In this document: piece after piece, positions 1-44,900 of the stretch
Layout: the number at the start of each line of letters is the position of its first letter
How positions within the stretch are numbered: the first letter of the stretch is position 1
DNA from: Halichondria panicea
Lineage: Eukaryota > Porifera > Demospongiae > Suberitida > Halichondriidae
Assembly: GCF_963675165.1 (NCBI RefSeq)
Contig: NC_087393.1
Location: 2,237,502-2,301,501 of the forward strand
Length of the DNA stretch: 64,000 nucleotides
Direction of reading: 5' to 3'
Position numbers and translations under genes: made by a program
The notes under the pieces: generated by a model
Told to the model about the DNA's origin: nothing
The model's database searches: none
The model's input: only the letters and a program-made list of their open reading frames with translations

Positions 1-760
1 TGTCATTACGTGGGCGTACCGCACGCTAGTGGTGCTATGAATATCATTAACTACTGGGGGGGGGGGTTAGGGCACATAGGTACAGTACAGCAGAGGAAAA
101 GGCTCGTCCACATCAAAGGCTCGTGGGAGGAGCCCAACAAACCACAACAACCATGAATGTCATTACGTGGGCGTACCACACACTAGTGGTGCTATGAATA
201 TCATTAACTACTGGGGGGGGGGTTAGGGCACATAGGTACAGTACAGCAGAGGAAAAGGCTCGTCCCCATCAAAGGCTCGTGGGAGGAGCCCAACAAACCA
301 CAACAACCATGAATGTCATTATGTGGGCGTACCACACGCTAGTGGTGCTATGAATATCATTAACTACTGGGGGGGGGGGGGGGGTTAGGGCACATAGGTA
401 CAGTACAGCAGAGGAAAAGGCTCGTCCACATCAAAGGCTCGTGGGAGGAGCCCAACAAACCACAACAACCATGAATGTCATTATGTGGGCGTACCGCACG
501 CTAGTGGTGCTATGAATATAATTAACTACTGGGGGGGGTTAGGGCACATAGGTACAGTACAGCAGAGGAAAAGGCTCGTCCACATCAAAGGCTCGTGGGA
601 GGAGCCCAACAAACCACAACAACCATGAATATCAATATGTGGGCGTAATGCACGCGTGTGGTGCTATGAATATCATTAACAACTGGGGGTTAGGGTACAG
701 TACAGTACTGCAGTCAAGGCGACGCCAAAAAGAGGCTCACACAATGTAGGAGGAGCCACA
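1..760. repeat. ~157-bp tandem satellite, 4-5 units
   Basis: Units begin near 1, 158, 314, 476 and 630 (spacings 157, 156, 162, 154). Each carries a conserved GTGGGCGTAC-type start, a run of G followed by TTAGGG, and an AGGAGCCCAACAAACCACAA end. The units differ mainly in the length of the G run (about 8 to 16). The last unit is degraded and changes after about 700 into a different sequence with two AAAAAGAGGC blocks. The array may continue left of the window. Confidence 0.9.
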
Positions 761-26180: not shown

Positions 26181-26998
26181 CTACCTAATGTACAATTCTA
26201 TTTGTTGTATAACCACATCTTCCTCTGATCTCACTTGGTCGCGGCATACTCGCATCTCGATATCATCAGTCAATGAATCACCAAACTCTTTAAAAAACCA
26301 TGGAGGATTGTTGAAAGAACAGCAGGTACTATTGGCTCCACAGCCAGCACCATCCCATAATGGATCATCCGCATACACAAAGAAATCAGTTGGGTCTTCG
26401 GTTCCAGTGTCACAGAAATAGTCGTTACCCACAAAGTTTGGAGGCATGGTAGATTCAGAGGCAAAGTTAATGTTAGTACAGGGGCAATTTGAAAACAAAA
26501 AAGTCGCTGCTTCAGTATGTCCAGCAGCAAAAGACCAGATATGATTGCGAGGACTGAACCCATAAGTTAGACTGACACCATCAAGATAAGCATCATCTAT
26601 ACCTCTTGATCGGGTATTAGGCCCAAACGTATCGGTGGCAGCAACTTGATATCCGATAACCTTGCCACACACCTGCCTATAGCTAGTATTGGTTATGAAG
26701 AATGCTTCAGAGCAACCTGCTTCCTCTGCAGTCCTTCTACAAACATTCAGCCCACCAGAAAACCCCACCTCACCAAGAGTGCCAGGACATTGCACACCAT
26801 TTACTCTGGTGTCCACATTGACAATGCGCAGCCAGCCTCCGGTAACATTACCGCATGTTATGTTCATGTCGCAAGTCCTCAGCAATTGAGTGCCAGAGAG
26901 TGTTTCTAACCAGTAGTCACCACTCGGAGAGGACGGATCGCAATCGAGGATTTGCTGACAGGAGGAAGCTGGGTTGAAATCATCGGCACCCGGGCAAA
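26181..26998 (-). other. Cysteine-rich C-terminal module of gene A
   Basis: Last exon, 271 residues plus stop. It has many cysteines and conserved-looking blocks: CQQILDCDPSSPSGDYWL, GGWLRIVNVD, QVCGKVIGYQVAATD, YLDGVSLTYG, HIWSFAAGH, FVGNDYFCDTG, DPLWDGAGC, TCCSFNNPPWFF and DDIEMRVCRD. I recall this block order as the C-terminal module of many predicted sponge and cnidarian extracellular proteins but cannot give it a database name. No GPI or membrane signal follows: it ends EDVVIQQIELYIR. Confidence 0.75.
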
Positions 26999-29900
26999 CT
27001 GGCAAGTACAGAAGTGGATATGAATATAAATTATCAGCGTGCTGATGATTATGCAGAGGGCACTGACAATGCATTAGTCGCAAAAGTTGGAGCAGTCTAA
27101 TGAAATACGCCATGCACTTCATAGGAATTCTCTTCAAACAGAGTCTTATTGTTGGTACATGCACATGCACACATGCACACATGCATGCATTGCACTTACC
27201 TAATGATAATACGACTAGATTAGAGTCGACAGATCCGATGGAATTAAACACATTCACGAAAAATACGCCAAAGAAAGTGCGTCCAACTACAGATACTATC
27301 AAAGTAGGGGTATTGACCCCAAAAAATTCATCTGAATCTGAGAGGGGTACAGTAATGTCTGCTGCCATAAACCATTGATAAGACAATTCACTGCCAGAAG
27401 CTACGACTGAAAAGATTGCTGTTGAGTTAACCGGAAGCTCTACATCAGCTGGTTGGATGAGGATGACAGGGGGGTCTATATGCAAGAAAATAATAGCAAT
27501 TATTAAACTATCATTCAAAGTTTTGCAATGATGCTCAAATTTCGTATAACACATAACTGACCTGTAAATATTATAGGCTAAAATTAATAGTCACACACAT
27601 ATATATATATATACGTACCATCATTGTCAATAACCATCAGAGTAGTATTTGTCACATTCCCACCGGAAGTGAACACTCCGGGAGGCATCACTGTCAATGT
27701 AGTGGTTATCAGTCTGTCGTTCCCAACAATGCTGTCATCAAAAACTACTGTACTGAAGAACACCTCATTTCCAGGAACGGATCCAGCAGGGAACATCACT
27801 TGAAGACCATATAATAAATACATCACTTGAACACCATAATTATAGAGACATCAACAGCACATAAAAACAGCAAATATCAGAAGAAAAATAGCTTAATTAC
27901 GTACGTGTGTTGCAGTTTTGCTCATCATCTCCATTTGGGCAGTGCTCAATACCATCACAGACTAGATCAAATGCAATGTAGCAGCTAGAGTCACTATCAC
28001 ACCTGAACCCCCCTGTATAAATGATATGCAAGTAGTGAGTCCGGCATACGTACTCGGGTCGCTGCTATTAGCAGGAGCACATGAAGGGGAGTATAAGCAA
28101 CTACTATACAGCCCATGGCCATACAAACGTGTTGTTGTCTGACTCTGTTGTAAAACGCCCACGTCTTAAGTAGCTGTACAACGCACTCAAAAATAGTGTG
28201 GTTAGTATTGCGCAAGCAGCTGTGGTAGAATTTCTGATTGTAGCCTGCCTGCCTTAGTGTTTTTCAGTAAGTGTGACGGCCCTCCCGCATCAGGCATATG
28301 CATGTACTATAACCTGGTTTATTTTATCACCTTCCCCCCCTCCCCCATATAAATCGACAGACTACCAATACCCTTAGAAGTTGTTTTTATCACAGTGACA
28401 GCACAAAATAATATAGGCCACTCACCACATGAACTCAAAAATAAGGTTTTTATCTGTGTGTCGAGGGGATGGGCTCGAGGTTAACGTGGTGCACGAGACG
28501 CACGCTAGCCAAGTGCATTTCGTAACCAAGAGTCCATCTGAGTGCACCATTGAAACACGTGATTTTGGCTAGGTGCATGTGTTCTAAAGGATTTAGTGCT
28601 GCCTCGTGTACAGCCTACCTGGATACATTTGAGTTTTATATTTCATGGCATGTCTCAAATCGTTTGTTTCATAGCTTAAAGTAGTTATTTTAAAGCACGA
28701 TCATGTGATTACTTTTTGATAGGCTGGAGATCATGTGACAGCACTAAATACCCATATTATAAACTTACTGCAGAAGAAATTTGACTCGTCAATGCCATTT
28801 GGACAGTCCACCGCTCCATCACACATCGCCGTGTTGTTGACACATATATTGCTCGGGTCCAGTGAACAAAGAACAGTACCAGTTTCACAAGCTGGAATAA
28901 AGTTCACGTGCATGCAAGTATTATAGTAATGCATGTATGTACAATTAGTTTGGAATGAATGACTCACTGCCACATGTTTGTATCGTCTCATCAGTACCTC
29001 CCGCACAATCGGGTACTCCATCACAGAATCTCTCAAATGGTAAACACATCTCTTCATTACATTGGGACATGCCAGGGGGGCACAGCAACGTAATCCCTGC
29101 AGCAGGAAAATGTAAGAGTCAATATTAGCGAAAACTAGCATTAATTCTCATACAATTCTGGACATTTCTCTTTTACTCCAATACATTGTGTTCTCATGAG
29201 CAAGAAGTATCAAAGTGTGCATACAATTATATAGGGACTAAGGGTATACCTAGAGCCAATCCACAAGAACCAACGTTTTCATCAATCCCATTAAGACAGT
29301 CTATCACTCCATCACACAGGCGGGACCTTGAAAGACATTGCGGAAAATTGCTATCTGGCAACAAACACAGTGGTAGCTCATCTTCACCAGGACAACCTTC
29401 ATGTATGTATGGGGAAAGCACGTAGGATCGAACCAACAAAAAAGTGGCCAGCTAATAATTTTGGTCACCCTTCAACTGACCGCAGGCAATGACTGATTCA
29501 TCTATTCCATCAGGACAGTCTACTACCCCATCACAGCCGCGAGAGTTTTCCACACAGGTCATACTCGGGTCACCAGGACACTGAATAAACCCAGTGGAGC
29601 AATCTATATATAAATAAATAATAGTAGTTAGCTGGCATAAATATATATATAAATTCAGACCCAGCTAGGGTTTTGTGCAGGCACAAGATTTCCAGTACAT
29701 TACTTGGATTAATATAATTATAGCAAATTTCACCTTCCTCTTCTTTACATGCATATTTCAGTGTTACACTTATTTGCACATTTCAAGTTCACTTACTTCC
29801 ACAAAATTCTCCAGGAGCTGTAGACTCATCACGACCATTGGAGCAATCTATAACTCCATCACAAAAGCGTTCAATGGGGATACAGCTGCTTGTTGAAACT

Positions 29901-32900
29901 GGCTCCCCAGAATTGCAGTAAATTGTACCACCAGGACAGACTATACAAACGGAAGACATCACATTTTCATTACAGAAGAGCCGATTATAACAAGGATAGG
30001 TATAATAATTATTACCGGGGTGTGTAGTTGAAAAAACCTAGAGGTGGGCCCTATATATAAACACAACGTAATATGCAGTAATTCTCATTTGGAGTCAACA
30101 GAATATACAGCAAAATTGGTCGTGTGCATGGAGCTTTGCAAATTTTTTTCAACGTACTATTATAGACTGTATAACATGTCACTGTGTTTGCAACTACATG
30201 CATACCTCAGTCCTCATAAATTAAAAAAGTGTAAGCATCAGAGGAGGTACGACAGGCGCGGTGCAGCTCAAGCAATTAGCCTTTGCTTGAGCAATAATTA
30301 TCCGCCCAGGCCCCGCTCACGTCGTATGTTTTTGCTGCACCGCGCCTGTCGGACCTCTTCTGCATGTACATGTCTCGACGCACAGGACGTATTGGGACAA
30401 GTTGTGCAGTGAAGCATTGAACAGACGAACTTACAGAAAAATTGTGGCAATGGTATAGGAAAATCAGGTCCAACACTGGGGCACTGTGAATCTGTGTTTG
30501 GAGATACATCAAAAAGTGCAAAACAATAGTGCGAATTGTACAAAATCGTGTCACTTACTGCAGTCGATTTCATCGTTTCCATTGGGACAGTCTGGTTCCC
30601 CGTCACAGACATACGGAAAAGGAAGAAAACAGTTGTTTTCATCGCCACAACTGAAGCCAAGTCCAATAGGTCCTGCATGAAAATGATCGAGATACTAGAT
30701 CTATCATTAATACGTAGAATACAGTCAAATTCATATAAGTCCCGCTTTTGAAATTCCAACAAGTGCTTTCTGATTTTTCACTGCGTGCATTTCTTATACC
30801 TTGACAGATAAACGATGACTCATCTATGCCATTGGGACAATCCAGCTGTCCATTACAAATTAACATATTGCTTATGCAAGTGTTGTTATCATCATTGCAA
30901 GAGAGAAAACCAGCGGTACAATCTGATAGTGTAAAGAAACATCAGTCATTTTATCTACATGGGCAATGATCACTTACTTTCACACATTACATTGCTCTCG
31001 TCCGTACCGTTACTGCAGTCTGGTATTCCATCACAGAATCGCTCAAATACCAGACACTCCGAAGCTTCTTCATTGCAGGGTGCACTACCCAAAGGGCAAA
31101 TGGGAAGATCTAATAATTAAAACCATATCAATACAGGGAACAACCAAGTATCTCGACTATAGAGTATACGTGCAATAGTATAATTATAAGGTAACACCAC
31201 AATTCTTGCAACAGCCAATTGCTTACTGTTGACAATTTGCCCACAGATGTCCACACTCTCATCCTCCCCGTTTTCACAGTCTATCTCTCCATTACATACC
31301 AGACTGCTCGAGATACACTGAGTGCTACCGTCAAGGAACTTGCAAACTTGCAAATCTCCCATGTTGGGGCAGCCTGCATTGAGCAGTATATGGATGCAAA
31401 TAATATGTGTATAGTTCACACTGTCATCAATAGATACTGATTACTCTTATGGATACACTGATATATATACCACACAGCCAAAAACAAAGACACGGGACAT
31501 TTTAAACAGGCTGGTAACAAATTTGAAAGTAAATCAGTGGAAAAATCCAACTGTACAAACAGTATCCGGTTCCCCATGCATGCACAAGCCTTTCAAAAGC
31601 AATATAATGGTAATTTTGAATGTGAATGTCTGATAGGTAAAACATCTTTTAGCTTGACAGCATGCAATGATATTTATTTACCGCAAAGGTCCACAGATTC
31701 ATCATATCCGGTTTGGCAGTCAGATTCCCCGTTGCATGCGGCGGTATTGCTGAAACACTGATTCTCACCCTGAGGATCGATTACTGAGCACTGCAAAAAC
31801 CCTTCACCACATTCTGTAGGCAAATTAAATGTGTGCTCTTTCCTTCCTGAGAATCTCAATTTCAATCACATTATACAAAAGACTGATAACTTGGCACACA
31901 GCAATACAGGTTTTATAACGGCATGAAAATGTGCCTAATATTGTATGTTACATGCATGCAGTAGCACATTTACTATCAGTCTCCATGGATATAGTTTATA
32001 CATTCGAGACACTTACCACTACAGAACTCCTCTGATTCATCTCTCCCATTGGAGCAGTCTACATTGCCATCACAGAAATTATCAATCAGTACACAAGTAG
32101 CGCCTGAGGCTGGTTCTCCATCCTCACAGTAGACAGTGCCCCCAGGACAGACTAAAATTTAAAAAAGATGACCGTGTGGTTGGTTTATTTGTTATTGAGT
32201 GGAGTGACTCACAGTTTGATTGTGGTATGGACACTTGACCAGTTGAGCCTCCTCCAAAACATTGTAGAACTGTCAACAGGGGTTATTATTAAGTGAGCAA
32301 CATGTAATCATAATTATAGTTTTGCATATGCTATGTTATAATTATAATATAGTTGGTGAGTTGGTGAAAAAAGCATTCACCAACAATTGAATACTGTCTG
32401 TGATTACAGTGTTGTACTGGGTGACCGAGCAATCATTCCATCAATCTCCTGCTGATCCCAAGTTGTTTCAGATAATTCATTGCTTGGAACAGAAACACAT
32501 TGATTAGACTTTAAACTCACACCAGCTTGTCGAAATCATCAGCATGTACAAGTTTCCGGCATATAATTTATAATTATAGTAACTATAGAGTACGCACTAT
32601 TTGTTCTGCAGTTCTCTTCGTCTCTTCCATTAGAGCAGTCTTCCACACCATTGCATATGAAACCAAAAGGGATGAAGCAGTCAGAACCATCAGCACAGCT
32701 GTAGCCCAGTGGCAAACCACTCCCTAAGAACAAGTATAACAATGATATTTTGTCAGGATTGCGTTTACTATGCAGTTCCTATACACTAAGACACAACCAC
32801 CTATTACCATGCAGGAGCTATAGAACGGTTCTTGTGGGATATACATTGACTGGTTATTGGAACTAGTATAATTAAGTCACATGCTGTCAAAGATTTCATT

Positions 32901-35900
32901 GCACAAATGAATGCCATTGGTGCGTGCGACTCCTCAGGACAAAAATGAGTGCATGTGCAGTGACTTAAATTATTAAGTCACTGCTCATTGTACCTAGCAA
33001 TATTACAGCGCTGTGTATATAATTATAGTGACTTAAATACACGTTGCGGTGGCAGGGGCGTAGCCAGACTTTTGACATAGGGGTTTCCTTTTGAAAAACC
33101 AGCTGCGTGGTAGCGCCGGGAAATTTTAACCACGCCCACTTCCGGTGCCACACCCTCTTGATTGGGGCACACCTACTGGTTACAACTGCTCATTGTTTGT
33201 AATGACTTTTTTTTACATGTTTGTGAGAAGCTAGCTAGACTAGCTAGTCTAGCTAGCTATAGACATTCTAAAAGGCAGGTGTCAATTGTGTATTGCTAGT
33301 CTAGCTGAGCACCATTACATTTACCTGAGAGGTTTCATGTGGCTGAGATTGTTCTAAACTTGTCCTTCCTGAATATCGAATAAAGTTGTGCTTAAAGCTG
33401 AGTCTGAGAATACTGGAGCATGCAGGATTGATACTAGAACTTAAGTCTTGGTCTTCTTTGTTTGAGGTAGCTAGCTAGTTAGCTGAGACAAAGCTAGCCA
33501 AAGTGAAACGATTCACGGTGCTATCTCTACATGATTTGCAGCCACGTGCATGAAAAGATGGGCAGGGCTGCTTGATTTCAATTATTGGGGAGCCCTGCCC
33601 AATTTTCTCAGCAGCTCCTGGGGGGGTTTCTGGGCAACCAGGAAACAATGGTAGCTACGCCCCTGGGTGGCAGATATGGGATTCTTGAAAGGGGGGTTCC
33701 CCAGGGCTCTGAGCGGGTCAAGGACTGTTAAATTTACCTAAAAAAAAAGGTCGTCACTTCTTTGAAACAGTGCATGAGCATGCGCATTAACACACCGAAT
33801 TTTTGTCCTAAAAAAAATATCATCACTTTTCATAAGCAGTCTGCATGCACTACGCTGGAGAGTTTTTAGCCTTCATTGTCACTGAGACTGCACAGACAAA
33901 GCTTCGCAGGACTAACAAGGACTAAAGGTAAGTGAGAAGTGCATGTGAAAGCTAGTAAGAAAGGAACAACTTGCTAACTAGTTTTGAGCCTCCCACTCAC
34001 TTCTTTCTCAAAGGGGGGTTCAATTGAACCCAAAGAACCCCTCTGGATCCGCCACTGCGTTGACTAATGTACTGCATATAGATAGCCCATTTGGAATTCA
34101 ACCCTGTAAACGTGTACGTTTGTTTAGTAACAAAAAAGAGCTCTGTCACTATTCACGTAGATATTGCAGTATGTATATATACGCTTAACACTAACGTCAC
34201 GTGATTGAGTAACTACAATAGAGGAGAAAGGAAGTTGCATTCCAGAGTGGGATTAGAACCGAATTGTGCTTCCGTTCAAGTTTCATTGTGTGCAACATAA
34301 TTATATACATGCACCCATGCTCCTGGCAGTAGATTAAACAGCCATTACAATGACAATTATGGACTTATAATAATTATTATGTACCACAGAATTCAAATGC
34401 CTCATCAGTGCCTCCAGGACAGTCCTCGATACCGTCACACAGTTGAAGGTTACTCAAACACACTGTGGTAGTGTTTGGACATAAAATCTCGTCAGTTGGG
34501 CAATCTACGGTTGGAACACAACTTTAAATGTGCATGAAAAATCACACTATAATTGTATATAGGTTACCCTTTTTGCCAATTCTATATATACGCACACTTT
34601 ACGAGTCATTCAAACGAAAAAAAGTACTATACACTGATCATAGAAAACCCAAATTTAAAATGATATTTGCTTAGTTGATAAAGTGTGTTTTGTGAAAGCA
34701 TGCACTGGCTATAAACAGTGGTTAATGGCAGCAGAAGGACTGAGAGGTTCTTAGAGGTTAATGTGGTCTTGTGAATGACTGCGCATGTGCATGTGTCAAC
34801 CACGTGCAGTACAGTATTAGTATATTGGCAAAAAAGTGTGTCAGAACAAAGTTTCTTTCATTCCACCTTCCTCTAATCGCTGGGGGGGGGATAATTTCAT
34901 ACCACAAGTTCGGGCTGGGGGCACAGCCAGCTCGATTAAGGGGGTTCACCTTTAGATAATTATAGGGAGTTGCACCCTTTATAAGGGACCCACTCAGGGA
35001 GTGCTCTCCTCAGCCAGGGTACCCCTTCCATTTGGGTGGTGTCTTTAACTTATTGTTCCGGGCCAAATATGTCAGTTTATGGTGCTTTGCTTCCCTCGTC
35101 TGACATTAAGCATAAAATGATACCAAACAATCGTATAACTGCATGCTAATTGTGTCATGGATCTCCAATGTGACTCACTTCCACACATTTGCGGTATCTC
35201 ATCTCCACCATTTTCACAGTCTTGAGCTCCATTACAGAACCAATCAAAAGACACACACTGAGTACTGTTAGCACAGTTGGCAGTGCCTTGAGGACACCCT
35301 AAACAACAGAAAAGTTATGATTTTTGATTCTGATTCCAGAATCAGTCAACAAGCCATACATGCACACTCTATTTTCTAATTTTCACGCAAAACGAGTGAT
35401 TTAAAGATGCATGCACACGCAACTAAAACACACAATCTTCTCTAGCTATAATGGGCACAACTTTTAATCCTCTAATTATTATGGCATCATATCCTCAAAA
35501 ACTGACTATATTATTTATACACTTTCCAAGCTTCTACCAACTTGGCGCAATAAATATGATCATCATTCTCACCACACAAGGTTGTACTCTCATCAAACCC
35601 ATCATCACAGTCTACTATCCCATCACACAAGAACACACCCAGCACGCACTGTGTGGTCCCATTATTGAAGCGGCAAAGCGGTAACTGTGTCTGTACAGGA
35701 CAACCTGAGAGAGAAGTGAAAATAATACATTTGTCACAACGAGCTCATAATTATATCCATAAGTATTCAATTACACTGTAAGTGTTCTGGGTAATCTTGC
35801 GAGCTTCAAGTCTGTAGTAGCAACACCTTTCCAGCATCATACTTAGAATCTACCAGCTTACCACATGCCTCAGGAGACTCATCTACTCCATTAGGACAGT

Positions 35901-38900
35901 CCACCCTTCCATCACACGCCAGAGTATTGCTTACACAAGTGAAATCAGGATCTCCAAGACATATGATTGTCCCAGGACTACAGTCTGACAAAAAGTTATT
36001 ATGATTGATTGAGATCAGGATAGTTTATAGGATGCATGGAGGGATACAGTCATTCTTGGGATATACACAACCATTGTAGGGATTGTAATTGCAGCACCAG
36101 CTATGTGGCAAACAACTGATCTTTGTAGTTTCTTACTTCCACAGAATTCAGCAGATTCATCTCTCCCATTGGAACAGTCCACTTGTCCATCACAGTAACG
36201 CTCAATGGCCAGGCAAGAGCTTTCAGAGGCTGGCTCTCCATTCTCGCAATAGATAGAGCCACCAGGGCAGACTGAATGAAAAAAGAATGAACGGCTAACG
36301 TATCTCAAGCTAAATAATTATTATGGGCAGCCCCAATAAGAGAGTTCACACAAATATTAAGCACATTTATACTACGTACATGTGAGGCATTTATTTAGCT
36401 CCAGTGGCAAAACTGTATACAGCAATGATTAAAACTTACAGACACTCTCAGGAATTGTTCCACGAGTTTGAAGACACATGGGATCTGTGTTTAATGATTC
36501 TGTCAATACAATTTGTGAATCGGATATTTTCAACTAGATCTAGAGTGTGCTACCGTGATCTTTAATGAGGAAGCTACACACAGTAAGTTCTCAGTAGGGA
36601 GGGTAATTTGATATTTCCCCTATAGTATAATGGTAGGAATACGCCTGCATGGTGATGGTTGAATCACATCAACTAAATGCATTACCAGGAGAAACGACAG
36701 TAACGTTTGTTTGAATTGTGATGGCTATAGGGTACGTCAACACTCCTTCCACCAGCTGTATGGTGTTAACAATGGTTGTGTCACTCTCAGCTGCCGAAGT
36801 AGCTCCTGGTAATACTGAGAATAAGGGGACTGTGTGCGTGCATACGTGTGTGTGTTCACACAATAATAGCAGAAATACACTTTGACATTCATGCACACTG
36901 TATTATTGTCATCAGTATAATATTATAGCATTGTGGCAATGCAAATACACCTACCGTCATCATCAATAATGGTGACATTGACTACATCATCGACATTGAA
37001 AGCCAGCCGTCCAATAGGAGAGGAGTGTGGCCACAGAAGGATAGTCTCGTTCATCTCAACCATATCATCATTCAGAATAATTAGCTGAGTGGTGTTCCTC
37101 GATCCCTCCTGAGAAGTGCTAGGGTACAGGAATACTGGGTGTATGCTGAAGTCTTCATTCTCTGTGGATTAGAAACAAGCATGACACAACTAATGCAACT
37201 TTGGTGGCACATTAACTATAACTTAATACGTATAATTTTAGAGCGAAACTGAACTTGAAGGCACAAGAATTGAGAGCGGAAGTCTCCGACAATTCATATT
37301 AGTTCACAAGTGCACTGACTTACCTATAGCAGAGCCGTTATTGGTGAAGTATATAGTGAGAATAAAAGGAAATTGATTGAATGTTTGAAGGTCAATAAAA
37401 TTGATGTTTGTGTTGAAGTTTTCAAAGACATCGAGTACAGGTACTCCAAATGGAAACACGATGAACACTGCAAAAAAAGTTGTACATGGTAACATGCAGT
37501 TATATACCATGCAGCTAATGAATGGACATGCAGGGAAAATTGAAGCACGACAAGAGGTCTGGCTATAATTTATATGCAGTTGCAATTGGCATGTAAACAT
37601 CACAAACGTATACATGTAGTTACAGTGGAAGATGTGATAAACTAGATTAAAAGGTGTTAGTAAGTGTAGTATTACACTAAAGATTGAGCTACGCTGGGTG
37701 TACGTACAAACCCACCATCATTGTCCAGAATGATGACAGTAATGCTGGTATTGAACAAGCCAGACGAAATGGTGAGCATAAAAACTTCATCAAATTCAGC
37801 AACAACATCTTCAAAGATCTCAATGGGAACACTCACTAGTGCTCTGGTATTGTTACTAGAGACGCTAGATGTAGGATCTCCGAATGAGTAGTCCACACCA
37901 CCTGCATGAATGCAGCAGATGGGATTGCATATAATTATTATACATACATGCAATAGGAAAGTAACACCAAAATGTGAATAGCTAATTATAATGAACATTC
38001 CTTAGTAAGATAATCTGTCTGTACGCAGCACAACGGTGTAGGAACAGTGATTAACCTAACATGCAGAGTTACGTAAAGTCTATATATACAATAAAACGAG
38101 TATCCTGTTGTCTTTGAAACCTGGCAAACACAATTAGTTTCTCTCGTATAATTATAAAGACCATTGGTAACTTTACATGTAAAAGCGTCCCATGCTCATG
38201 CATTTAAAGTAGTTCTGGGCATAATAATACGTATTGGTTCACTCACTTGTGGTATTAATGTTTTGTACATCAGCGACAAAAGCTCGATCCGCAACATCAC
38301 CAACCAGCTGAAACGTGACAGTCACATTGCCAGCATCCTCACGAAACATGACCACATCTGCAGCAGCACCTCCATTGATGCTACCTAGGGCTGCGCATTG
38401 TAAAATCATGCACTTAATTATGTATATAGCTGCCATCACAATACCGATGCAATTTACATAATTAGAATACCTTCACAAGCTGGTGTTGTTCCATTGAATT
38501 CCCCCACTGTCATATTGCCATCGCCACAAGTCCTTGTCTCATTACCAACCAGAGAGAACCCTACGTCACAGCTGAAATAAGCCTCCGTTCCAAAACTAAA
38601 GGCACCTATATTGTTATTATCTGTGCTGTAGGACACCGTTCCATTCTCGGGTGCTGAAAGAGTCTCACAGGTAATAGCTGCATGTAGAATTAATGACATT
38701 ATAATTATACAGTGTATACCGTATAGCGCGAAATTTTTGAGGGCTTAATTTTCGCGGATTTCGTGGGTTAGAATTCTACATGAAAAGTAAGTCCACGAAA
38801 ATTGATTTAAGGGCTTCCGGTAAGCAGTCATTCCGCGAACATTGTGCAACGAAATGGCTTTTAGAGGCCAATCCACAAAATCATTGTTATAATACAAGTA

Positions 38901-41900
38901 TAATTTAACAATAATAACACATTTTATGACATATTTACAAGCACAGCTAGAACTCTAGAGATTATACAGATAGAGTAGTACCATGGCATGCATATATAAT
39001 AATATGCACACAATTGAATCAAAAGATAACCATGCAGGCAAGGGTGGAAGAATGTATCCATGCAGACTGAAATACGGTGGTATAGAACTATATATCTGTA
39101 CTGTTTCTGCAGTTTCTAATTTGACCGCCGTGATAGTTTGGCACTCTGTAGACAAATTTTGACAACAAATTTCGAACTGAAAGCACTGGTTATTGCTAGG
39201 AAAATTACTAGAATTATAGCTGAATCTATAGAGCAAGAGATTGCGATCTGTATAATCTAGAGTTTTTCAACACTACGTATAATCATATCTTCCCTCTATA
39301 TATTTAACCTCCAATTATCTGTACCTATAGAATCCCGACAATTGCAAAAGCAGAATACAAGTATACTAAACTGGGCGGAGCCATGCCAGGCTCCACTCTG
39401 TATAATCTGTGACAGTATCCACCGGTATACTGTATGTCTTCTTATATCAATCAAAAGCATATTTCACATACTCCTATACGTACTACTACGTATATGTAGT
39501 CTACACCTACCATTGCACTGAGGTGCAGCACCATTCCACTGTCCTACAGTGTTGACTACATCGCCGAGACACACCCTCAGAACATCACCTCCTTCCAGTC
39601 CTAGGCCAAGGTTGCAAGTGTACTTAGCCTCAGTGCCAAGCGGGAAAGGGGGTGGTTGGTTAATGGAATATGTGATCGTTCCGTTTTCAGGCTCAGTGAG
39701 TTCGAGACACACCACCGTTTCAGCTGAAAGCAAAAGTATAACTTACATGTACATCGAAATCATTCTTTAATAAAAGCCAGTGAGACAACTATATGCCAAT
39801 GCGGCAACTTGCACAACATTAACGTGACCATGCACACTCCAATATATAATAAGGTAGTTTTCAGTGTTGACGCAAAATTAATAAAATGTGTACTACAGAT
39901 ACATAGCACTCACCCTCGTTGTCAATAATAGTGATAGTTGTGACATCAGTGTCTCCCCCAGATGAAAACTCTCCTCGAGTTGAGAGTATAGAAGCAACCA
40001 CAATAATTACCTCCTCAATCTCAATGGGTACATCTTGAAGTATAGAGACATTTACAAAGAACTTGGTGCCTGGTCCAGAACCAGCCTCAAAGGTCAATGT
40101 GGTTCCAAAGCTCAGGTAGTCTTCCCCAACTGTATGTGAGAATGATAAAACGTACAACATTCACATACAGGATTATTACTATATATATATGTTACATAGA
40201 AATACTCCTTCAGAATTAAGTATGCTTACTGGTAGCAAGTCTGTTGTCAGGAAAGAATATTCCAAACAAAGTTGCCATCTGTGTTCCATCTTGAACGAGT
40301 ACATCAATTGGAAACGTGAGCGTTGATTGGACGAGCTCAACACACAGCTGCACAATTGTATTACTTTCTTCGGTGAAGTTGGTCTCAGCCACCAACTGAA
40401 AAATAGGCACTACAAAAAATATGATTAAATTTAAATTTGTTTTATGATATACCAACACTGTTACAGTAGTTCACAAGCTCAATAATTATAGTAACAATAA
40501 ACTAAGTCTAGAAATAATTGACTACATTTAGTTACAGCAGAATGGATTGCAAGCATGATCGAAGAGATTAGCAATTAAAGTGGTGCAGCTATATTTATGC
40601 ATGTTTTAGTTTATGCCATACATGATTGTAATCATGATCAGGAGTCAAGCCGATATAATTATACTCTTTGTAATTTTAGCCTTACTGTGAACCAAGGTAC
40701 AATACACACACTTCTGTTCATTACCATCGACATCCATAATAGTTCCCTCTACTAAGTCTTCTCCCACAGGGAATGCCAAACGAGCCAGAGGCATTGTGGT
40801 CAGCTGCAATATCAGAGTCTCATTCTCCTCCACCAGTAGGTCCCGCAGAATGGTTACTTGAGCAGAAGAGGAGACGCCAGGACCAGAACCAGTATCAAAC
40901 GTTAGGACGAGCGGAGCGGTAAAATCTCCATCTAATAAAAGTGATGGCCAATGATAGAACATTACTAGAGCAATTTGTATGAATTATCTGAACTATCGTG
41001 ACGACTTATATAATTATATACATAATCATTGTACTTCAAAGTACACACTCGCATTTAAAACAGGCAAGGATCCTATAGCTATACGTTCGTGTATTTCAAG
41101 TTTTTTTGGTGTCCCTGATATTTTCAAATGTAATTAATTATGATTGATTGCTGCCATGTAAAGCGTTAGAATTATTAGTTGAATGAAAACTTAACCCATT
41201 CAATGATACACACAAATCCATTTACATATATATAATACGTAAGAATCTCTTACCACTCCTTTTGGCTGTTCCAATGTCATTAAGGACAATCTCCACTGGA
41301 AAGGGTAGAGTTCCCACAAGCAGTGACACAACAATGGATTCAGCGAGCGTACTAGCAGTCTCAGTGACTGTGAATGAGCCTGGCGAATTAGTGATCTGGA
41401 ACATTACTGCATAAACAAAACCACAGAAGTTATGCATTGCAGGATACCCATGCAGCCTACGAAATACACACCCTATCATTTCTCACCATCCTCGTCCAAG
41501 ATGATGACAGTGGCCATGATAAAGGTGGTGTTAACATTGGGATCAGGTGAGTCAGCTGTCACCACGAACATCTCGTCAAACTCTATCAGATTGTCATTGA
41601 ATATATCTATCTGGATACACATCAGAGATCCTGGCCCGCCTTGAGCAGTGGCATTGAAAAACGTCGAGGTGGTATTTACAAAACTATAGTCCTCAGGTTC
41701 TGAGAAGAAATGTCAAAAAAACTGTTTACGATATACGCATAACTAATTGTAGATTTTAGCCATATTCAAGCACAACATGCATGACGCGAAAGAAGTTCAT
41801 GTTATAGTATACCTGTAGCATTTCCGTTTACTGTGACCAGACTCACAACCACATCTCTGGGTAAAAACCCCTCAGTGGCTATTTCCAGACAAACTGTTAC

Positions 41901-44900
41901 ATTCCCCACATCCTCTCTCACCAAGTACTCATCTTGGGTGAATCGAAAGTCAATGGCTGGAAAGGAGAGTCTAAATAAAACTCACTTATAGCTGTTAGCT
42001 ATAATTATATATAGTTAACGTTGATTTTAATACGTGGTATAAAAAAAAGAAAGCTTACCCTGAGAGATATTTCGAAGGTGTTACTATAGAGAGGGGGGTT
42101 TGTTATGTAATACCACGTAAAAAACAATGATGAAATTACAAATTAATGCAGCCACAGCAGATACCAGGAAGCATAATTATGATCATGAACTATAAAACAC
42201 ACTCAACTATATATCACCTTTTGTCAGTGATATCTATAATGTATACGTACTCAGGTAAAGACCCTTACCGATGCTTTCAATAATCTCTTGAATTCTTCCT
42301 GGCTGTTCCCTGCACGATATACAGAAGCAAACACAGTATAGTCATCACATACATACATACACTACATATACTTGCCTCTCTGTGCAGTTGAATATTACGT
42401 CTATAATAGTGATCAGGACGGGGTTGATTGTCATCTGATTCAATACAGCAAGCCCAACATCATTGTTAGTGTAGTCTGTATATACAACACAAAAAGTATA
42501 CAGTTTGTGGCACAGTAGATGCAATACTTAATACAGATATAATATTGAAGGAAAATTAGCAGGATACGGATACTCACTGCATTGCACAGGCTGTATGTTC
42601 TCAGTTAAACGTCTTATTCGACGAGATCTTTCAGGAGTATGTCTTGCAAACCGAGGATTGGCTGTGGTAACATTATCTCCAGTATCATCGTCCTCTATTC
42701 CGAGGCCGTCCAAGTCAATGGGGGGTGGTTCCAACTCATCGAGGGTTAAGGCCTCACCATTACCCTCAAGTGCCAGCCTCGAATGTGCAGCCAGGAGGAT
42801 ACCAGTGACATCCGCCACGCGAGCAGCAGGGATTACAGCCTGTCAGCATGCACATGGAAGGAACCGTTACAAATGTATTTTGGAAAGGGACTTGTCAATA
42901 CTGCATACTGTAGTGCAAGTACGTAATGCTAGTACGTAATGGTAGGGTAATGAAGTACTTTGAGACCTCTCATCAAACGCAAATGGTTTCAAACAAAAAT
43001 GAATTGTGATGACTAACCTCCGGTGGTGTGTTCCCCAACTCAGGGAGGGTCGTAAATGATGTGAAGAAGACAAACACTCCAGCTCTAGTTAATGGACCTG
43101 CATCGATTGAAGGGATAGTACTCTAAAGACTAGGGTATATATATGCCGACTTCATAGTACCCTCAAGTCATAGTAGATTTTATAATGCTTCACTCATGTG
43201 TCAGAACACCGAATGAAAATCAATGTCATACCGACATTACCTCAAATTATGAAGTTGATATAATTATGCATTTCATAAAAGCAAACAAGTGTCTTAATTG
43301 AAGTCTTACACCTTGCATACATGGCTTCTATTTGCCAATATTAGTAACCATGCAGACAATTCACAAATCAGGTGGTATTATCGTACTATACCATACTTAT
43401 ACTACCACTAACCAGGTCCTGAGAAGATTGTGACAGAATCGTTAGTCAGTGGAGCTTCACGAATGAATTCCAGCTGGGTACCGTTGGTATCTATGACTAC
43501 CAGCTTGTTGATGGGTGATGGCAACCTTTTTTGGGGAATTTGAGAATTTGAGCATTTCATTTAAGTAACTTACGTACGTACGTAACTCTTAAAATAGCAA
43601 TACTGATCAATAGCTACATTCTATGAACACTTCTTAATTCAGAAATACATAATTTTATTGACCCTTTATATATACGTTAGATTTTGCACCTGCGTATGAC
43701 TGCCATGTTCGTCATGTCAAGAATAGTGACCACTCTGTTGACGTACGTGATGCCACCATTAAAAGGAACATTAACCTCATCCACACTGCAGGCCAGGGTT
43801 GTGGCATCCTCCAAACTGAGAGTGCTTCTCTTCATTCGCTTAACATACTCCACTTGACGCGTAACTCTGGCACTCTGGGCATATAATTAATACACGATTC
43901 ACAGTGATGTACTATTGATATATCTCTGGAGCAGCCAACTTACAAACAATTGTCGTGAATTAGAGCCTTGTCCTCCACTGTTATCATCTATATGGTAGTA
44001 GTATAAGCAAGATTTAAAGAATGTGTTAATCTAATTTCTAGCCTGAGTTTGACTTATGAATTCACTAGCAGACTGCTTGTACATGCATGTACAATGGTCA
44101 TGCATGGATTCCTTTTTACTCCTAATGTTATAGGCTCCTGAGCTGCTATACCATTACACACACAGAAAACTTATTTAGTGTGCATGCCTGGACGTCCCCT
44201 TACAAGAAATTTACGAACAGTGTCCTATGATGTAAGTATAACGTAATTGTATATACGGTAACACTGGTTGAAACATAATTACACCAAGGGCGTATAAAAA
44301 AAGAGAGGGCATGCAACTCCACTATCAGTACACGTAGCTAGCAGAGCTCAAAATTTCTATTTTTGGCACTTCATGCAAATGCACACATTCCTCCCCCCAC
44401 GTTTGAACTCTGCTCATATGGGAGTTGCATGCCCTCTCTTCTTTTATACGCCCTTGATTACACTACTTAAAACTGTAATTTTGGGGACTCATTATGATTA
44501 TAATCTGGCTGTTTCTTGTAGATGAATAGCCTCCTTCACAGGCCCAATGTGGTTGTCCAGGGGTATGTCCGATGGGGTCAGGGGGGTCAACTTTTAAGGT
44601 GTATGCTGGTTTAAGGTAACTATAGGATTCACTTACTGCCAGTCATTGCTAGTAAGTCAGTGCTCACACACACTACAGTGGCCGAGAACCCAGGAAACCT
44701 TCCCCTGTCACTGGTCCTCAGGATTACCTCAATAGTACCTGCAGTTAAAGTGCATTCTTATAATGAGCAAAGAATCTAAGTATATACGTGATGTGCATGT
44801 ATGTGCATGCAATGCCACACAATGTACATCTCAGAATGAAGGGCAAGAGTCGCCGAGGGGTATGTAACCACAATATATGTAGTGGACAAAATATGGGGTC

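Follow-up and report, generated by a model that had tools for sequence, protein, structure and literature searches.

We report a Calx-beta domain that appears to be divided by a long array of LDLa exons in a 64,000-nucleotide stretch of the Halichondria panicea genome (hereafter the window; NC_087393.1:2237502-2301501). The domain, Calx-6, belongs to a minus-strand gene (gene A) that runs from ~26 kb upward in the window. Along the minus strand come a first-half exon (h1), 18 LDLa exons in frame and a second-half exon (h2); this is the order described in an earlier note on the window, and it recurs in copy D, a near-identical full copy of the gene. We consider it reasonably probable that this is one gene, in which an exon-shuffled LDLa cassette entered the phase-1 intron inside a Calx-beta domain and was then tripled, the two halves closing around the resulting loop. 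All coordinates are window positions; the analysis extended 30 kb below the window and 70 kb above it, and the genome searched comprised 131 Mb in 39 contigs, the window lying on contig C17. The features on which the argument depends are as follows.

36955-41956, minus strand: five two-exon Calx-beta pairs, Calx-1 to Calx-5 (half models, positions, splice sites).
36686-36814, minus strand: first-half Calx-beta exon (Calx-6 h1); phase 1-1, splice sites AG/GTAATG, 10.9 bits with the first-half model.
36272-36685, minus strand: intron from h1 to the first LDLa exon (Ia); 414 bp, too small for a missed second half.
32598-36271, minus strand: LDLa block I, six exons with phase 1-1 splice sites, 38.8-58.8 bits with the LDLa model; modules a-f at 36137-36271, 35862-35984, 35573-35704, 35179-35298, 34385-34504 and 32598-32723.
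32213-32269, minus strand: probable 57-bp spacer exon at the block I/II joint; phase 1-1, open in copies A, C and D, resembling the other spacer.
30559-32151, minus strand: LDLa block II, six exons, modules a-f (LDLa model, block comparison, phase 1-1 splice sites).
30435-30491, minus strand: probable 57-bp spacer exon at the block II/III joint; phase 1-1, open in copies A, C and D, resembling the other spacer.
27905-29940, minus strand: LDLa block III, six exons, modules a-f, the last at 27905-28012 (LDLa model, block comparison, splice sites).
27619-27825, minus strand: second-half Calx-beta exon (Calx-6 h2) with corrected acceptor 27825; 13.4 bits with the second-half model, and homology.

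The exons h1 and h2 and all 18 LDLa exons have lengths divisible by three and are bounded by AG and GT at phase 1 (phase 1-1). The two spacer candidates are of the same class, and the phase-1 boundaries proposed earlier hold throughout. Spliced together, h1, the 18 LDLa exons and h2 give an uninterrupted frame of 881 residues, to which the LDLa modules contribute 770; h1 joined directly to h2 likewise reads through in frame.

To locate Calx-beta halves we used models built from 45 first-half and 49 second-half exons of other loci in the same genome; recruitment had been seeded with gene A exons, including h1 but not h2, and the seeds were then removed. Across 25-50 kb these models mark 36797-36708 as a first half and 27802-27620 as a second half; between h1 and h2 they detect no Calx-beta half of at least 6 bits. 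The end of h1 and the start of h2 fall at about the usual Calx-beta split point. Both exons are Calx-beta halves, as the earlier note held, although its word 'typical' was generous given scores of 10.9 and 13.4 bits. Pfam recognized no Calx-beta in h1 or h2 alone. Among the neighbouring domains, PF03160 (cut-off 27 bits) passes Calx-1 and Calx-3, places Calx-4 and Calx-5 under the cut-off and also misses Calx-2 altogether; Pfam is uninformative as a test of whether the halves pair. A genome search with h1 matched the three copies A, C and D only, among which the h1 protein is identical.

Missed exons that might complete either half, a possibility considered in the earlier note, were not found, and the flanking introns have no room for them. 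In the 414-bp intron beyond h1 (36272-36685), sense-strand frames stay open for 34 codons at most, which rules out a missed second half after 36686; the intron likewise contains no open reading frame of at least 60 amino acids. It holds four short candidate exons (33-63 bp), none of which looks like a Calx-beta half by eye. A missed first half just before h2 is likewise ruled out, the intron at 27826-27904 being 79 bp with no exon candidate. Each half of Calx-6 therefore adjoins an LDLa exon directly, barring an intervening short exon candidate.

The second-half exon had originally been placed at 27619-27798; the exon stands, and its start most likely does not. A tandem acceptor (GTTCAAG/TGATG) 27 bp upstream of 27798 would add MYLLYGLQV to h2, and the alignment of the longer h2 with the Calx-3 second half (39914-40129) covers residues 2-68 of 68, at 33-34% identity (E 3.2e-5 in the A copy). 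By splice-site score the acceptors 27825 and 27798 are indistinguishable, both at a low 2.2; we prefer 27825 because of homology, namely its collinearity with the half at 39914-40129, and retain 27798 as an alternative. The two acceptors lie in nearly identical sequence contexts (GGTGTTCAAGTGATGT and GGTCTTCAAGTGATGT), and as tandem sites they could yield two in-frame isoforms. The acidic residues of Calx-beta domains have a calcium-binding role; in the segment FDDSIVGNDRL of h2 the first acidic residues are kept and the glutamates of the neighbours' consensus are absent.

We then placed Calx-6 among other Calx-beta domains of the genome, surveying 15 sequence sets that had been selected for their Calx-beta content or as paralogs, of which 13 gave halves and two gave none. 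The halves mostly alternate, first then second, in the surveyed sets. Across 115 consecutive first-to-second-half steps, many of them in tandem-repeated genes and hence not independent, the median gap was 180 bp and 114 gaps were at most 547 bp; the step within Calx-6 (36797 to 27802) spans 8906 bp. Departures from alternation were seen, for instance, in a gene near 821 kb on contig C5 (1 2 1 2 2 2 2 1 2) and in gene A (1 2 2 1 2 1 2 2 1 2), where the first halves missed are those of Calx-2 and Calx-5, each under 6 bits with the first-half model and at 6.3 and -0.7 bits, respectively, on the full-domain model. As these two scored weakly, their calls rest partly on position and splice sites. 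The earlier statement that every other Calx-beta of gene A occupies two adjacent exons fits all five pairs, with Calx-2 and Calx-5 less secure in their first halves. Two paralogous C-termini (on contigs C13 and C14), taken with the sequence before them in stretches of 4.6 and 4.3 kb, gave no Calx-beta half of at least 8 bits. Separately, a Calx-beta match at C6:2382998-2383231 lies inside an open frame of 10065 residues.

The pairing of h1 with h2 receives moderate support from sequence comparison. On a full-domain Calx-beta model of 63 pairs, none from gene A or its paralog gene B, the joined h1 and h2 score 32.5 bits, which none of 5000 shuffles reached (shuffle maximum 11.5); the neighbouring Calx-1 to Calx-5 score 82.0, 36.1, 53.0, 33.3 and 23.5 bits. 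We also compared halves among 68 non-redundant pairs (from 116, with two gene A pairs added by hand). In this set Calx-3 is the nearest relative of both h1 and h2, and their rank correlation is 0.36 (permutation p 0.001); true pairs average 0.30 and mispaired halves 0.11. We set aside a Fisher test on paired motifs (6,1 / 3,58; p 5e-6), since its patterns were post hoc and included terms added to fit Calx-5.

The array between the halves is itself ordered. A local LDLa model, built from 15 of the 18 modules of the gene A array itself, matches all 18 modules of A, and finds 18 modules in copy D and 12 in the truncated copy C, all open in frame; in a genome scan with PF00057, five of the 18 copy A modules exceeded the Pfam cut-off. 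The modules fall into three ordered blocks of six. A module's best match in another block occupies the same position in 29 of 36 between-block comparisons (one tie), a result equalled in none of 20000 label shuffles, and the seven exceptions are for modules at positions b, d and e. Spacers aside, block I begins beside h1 and block III ends beside h2. An LDLa module has six cysteines; by eye six are present in 15 of the 18 modules, and all three f modules have five. The f modules (27905-28012, 30559-30672 and 32598-32723) are without the first cysteine, and each of the two probable spacers, placed after f of blocks I and II, has a single cysteine.

The spacers were sought as short phase 1-1 exon candidates in all 19 gaps, with openness checked in each available copy. 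Because 14 short candidates proved open in every available copy, a short open exon alone means little. Two 57-bp candidates, one at each f-to-a block joint (LQCFGGGSTGQVSIPQSN and SQCPSVGPDFPIPLPQFF), also resemble each other, with only 42 of 5000 shuffles aligning as well. A third spacer before block I (36440-36499) was rejected, since it is open in all copies yet unlike the other two (976 and 3086 of 5000 shuffles), and a longer form of the 30.4-kb spacer, to 30321 or 30384, was ruled out, as it is broken in C and D, or in D. The array thus probably consists of 18 LDLa exons and two spacer exons, which would agree with the 20 LDLa/spacer exons counted originally; the halves would then be ~808 residues apart with spacers, close to the ~830 first estimated. 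The longest introns of the array, Ie-If (1661 bp) and IIIe-IIIf (756 bp), contain only short candidate exons.

Two further copies of the locus allow the array to be compared over a short evolutionary distance. Positions 30055-61849 are tandemly repeated at 61939-93991 (copy C); the repeat aligns in 17 segments whose identity ranges over 77-99% and exceeds 90% in 13. The 3′ end of copy C is cut inside the array, leaving h1 and 12 LDLa modules and no second half, Ig domain or C-terminus; read-through from copy C may extend into copy A. Copy D begins at 101887, is 98.4-98.7% identical to A over 25278-48044 and is a full copy with the same exon order. Noncoding divergence is low (50 of 7167 aligned positions between A and D, 57 of 5199 between A and C), which indicates that the copies are recent and do not constitute independent evidence. 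Within the array, A differs from D by 23 changes in 2151 bp, of which 13 are nonsynonymous and 10 synonymous, and from C by 20 in 1425 bp (14 nonsynonymous, 6 synonymous); far fewer changes were seen in the exons tested outside it. Either there is little constraint on the array, or its sequence is diversifying. With a frameshift in its Ig exon and the first cysteine of module IIIc lost, copy D may be decaying.

Outside the C17 cluster, the best LDLa match is the C5 gene (821-841 kb; E 2.3e-7), in which 12 LDLa modules without a clear a-f order stand ahead of a complete Calx-beta pair. We considered this gene as a second case of an array inside a Calx-beta domain, which proved unsupported: the array precedes the complete pair, and its modules lack the clear order seen in gene A. 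No Calx-beta half of at least 6 bits was found within 5 kb before it. The C5 arrangement would be compatible with an LDLa cassette moving between Calx-beta genes, and also leaves room for a scenario in which Calx-beta halves were lost.

Under the explanation that we favour, a six-exon LDLa cassette (a-f) would have inserted into the phase-1 intron by which Calx-beta domains are normally divided, and would later have been tripled in place to 18 modules. Since phase 1-1 is shared by h1, h2 and each of the 18 LDLa exons, the reading frame would have survived. If transcribed across the array, the gene would likely yield a large, probably extracellular modular protein, in which the first strands (h1) and last strands (h2) of the Calx-beta beta-sandwich may fold jointly and close around an LDLa loop of ~770-810 residues. 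Entry into the intradomain intron, already suggested in the earlier note, is the best-supported reading because the flanks of the array are Calx-beta halves, there is no room for a missing half, and the halves have a common closest relative; from these features we infer descent from a single ancestral domain, by insertion and not by loss. Several results weigh against this explanation. Of mispaired halves, 7.9% correlate as well as h1 with h2, and an equal correlation is reached by 3 of 68 other second halves with h1 and by 6 of 68 other first halves with h2; moreover, the shared nearest relative, Calx-3, sits in the same gene. PF03160 gives no match to the joined halves with either acceptor, and detection of first halves in gene A is incomplete (sensitivity was examined in gene A only). 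The array (27905-36271) diverges slightly more between copies than noncoding sequence does, such that selection is not visible. Finally, the insert is ~7x longer than its host domain, whereas inserts are usually smaller than their hosts (PMC13114784).

One may postulate instead that the array came to lie between two complete Calx-beta domains whose inner halves were subsequently lost, leaving two orphan halves that stem from different domains and are perhaps degenerate linkers. The C5 gene, whose array precedes a complete pair instead of splitting one, would suit such a history, as would the conserved acidic positions missing from h2 (FDDSIVGNDRL against the neighbours' consensus). This would require two independent losses, however, each exactly at the intradomain intron, and h1 and h2 are both nearest to Calx-3 and end and begin at about the usual split; we judge it a rival, though an unlikely one. 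The array might also be optional, with both forms made and skipping joining h1 to h2 in frame as an ordinary Calx-beta domain. The phases would let any subset of the 18 exons drop out and the h1-h2 join is open, but skipping 18 exons over 8.9 kb would need regulation, and we find this quite improbable; it is mutually compatible with insertion into the intradomain intron. Most improbable is that the array spans the junction of two genes, one of which ends, and the next begins, among the LDLa exons. Introns Ie-If and IIIe-IIIf, which hold only short candidates in a scan for internal phase 1-1 exons, could accommodate such a boundary, and copy C does end inside the array region; yet phase-1 LDLa exons continue through three whole blocks, and as A and D continue beyond that point we read the end of copy C as the edge of a recent duplication.

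The remaining features of the locus are as follows.

39511-39723 and 38471-38677, minus strand: two Sushi (CCP) exons among Calx-1 to Calx-5.
27199-27482, minus strand: Ig-like exon downstream of h2 (Ig_3, E 0.0022, 18.9 bits, under the curated cut-off of 30).
26181-27005, minus strand: C-terminal domain ending in a stop, with weak COLFI similarity only.

For the C-terminal domain Pfam gives nothing beyond the weak COLFI match; it has many relatives across the genome, the count of 101 matches taking in its own copies and Ig pieces (99 of the 451 candidates were scored). The paralog gene B lies below ~20 kb, has diverged further and contains Calx-1 to Calx-3 as well as Sushi-like repeats. Its Sushi-like repeat array has a unit of ~866 bp at ~95% identity and occupies ~2223640-2232720 of C17, 13.9-4.8 kb below the window start. 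A minisatellite with a period of ~155-157 bp, ~95% alike at a one-unit shift, covers window positions 1-713 and ~2 kb below the start.

Exon shuffling is normally seen as adding whole domains between domains. The laminin IV domain, a single globular domain, sits inside a laminin EGF-like domain, and there, as apparently in Calx-6, an extracellular module splits a neighbouring module with halves on either side; in laminin the insert is one globular domain, whereas here it is an 18-exon array in a predicted beta-sandwich. The solved Calx-beta domains of Na/Ca exchangers (2dpk, 2fws and 3rb7) are uninterrupted. Calx-1, and not Calx-6, matches these structures weakly (E 0.0075, 0.03 and 0.036), and its split point falls on TATESKDY of 3rb7 in an alignment of only 5.4 bits. 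A literature search, with most subscription papers outside its scope, returned nothing on Calx-beta domains split by other modules. The insertion of class 1-1 exons into pre-existing phase-1 introns, internally and without a change of frame, is established (PMC3927616). The present case is alike in that class 1-1 exons lie in a phase-1 intron of the recipient gene, and differs from known shuffling in that the intron is intradomain and the cargo, now 18 modules, is large and repeated. Discontinuous domains have an A1-B-A2 layout, one domain interrupting another; the median insert has 115 residues and the median host 199, and in 77.0% of events the insert is the smaller of the two (PMC13114784). 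Here ~770-810 residues of repeated modules would interrupt a host of ~110 residues.

A Calx-beta domain encoded by two exons has within it a phase-1 intron where a cassette could land, and the cargo in gene A has apparently grown to ~7x the length of the domain. One may speculate, although we consider it improbable, that the discontinuous Calx-beta clamps the ends of the array into a closed loop, and that regulated skipping switches between a plain Calx-beta and loops of variable size, making a tunable device for adhesion or ligand binding. If the explanation that we favour is correct, intradomain introns can take large cargo, and Calx-6 would provide a testable small beta-sandwich that either tolerates a loop of ~800 residues or falls apart.

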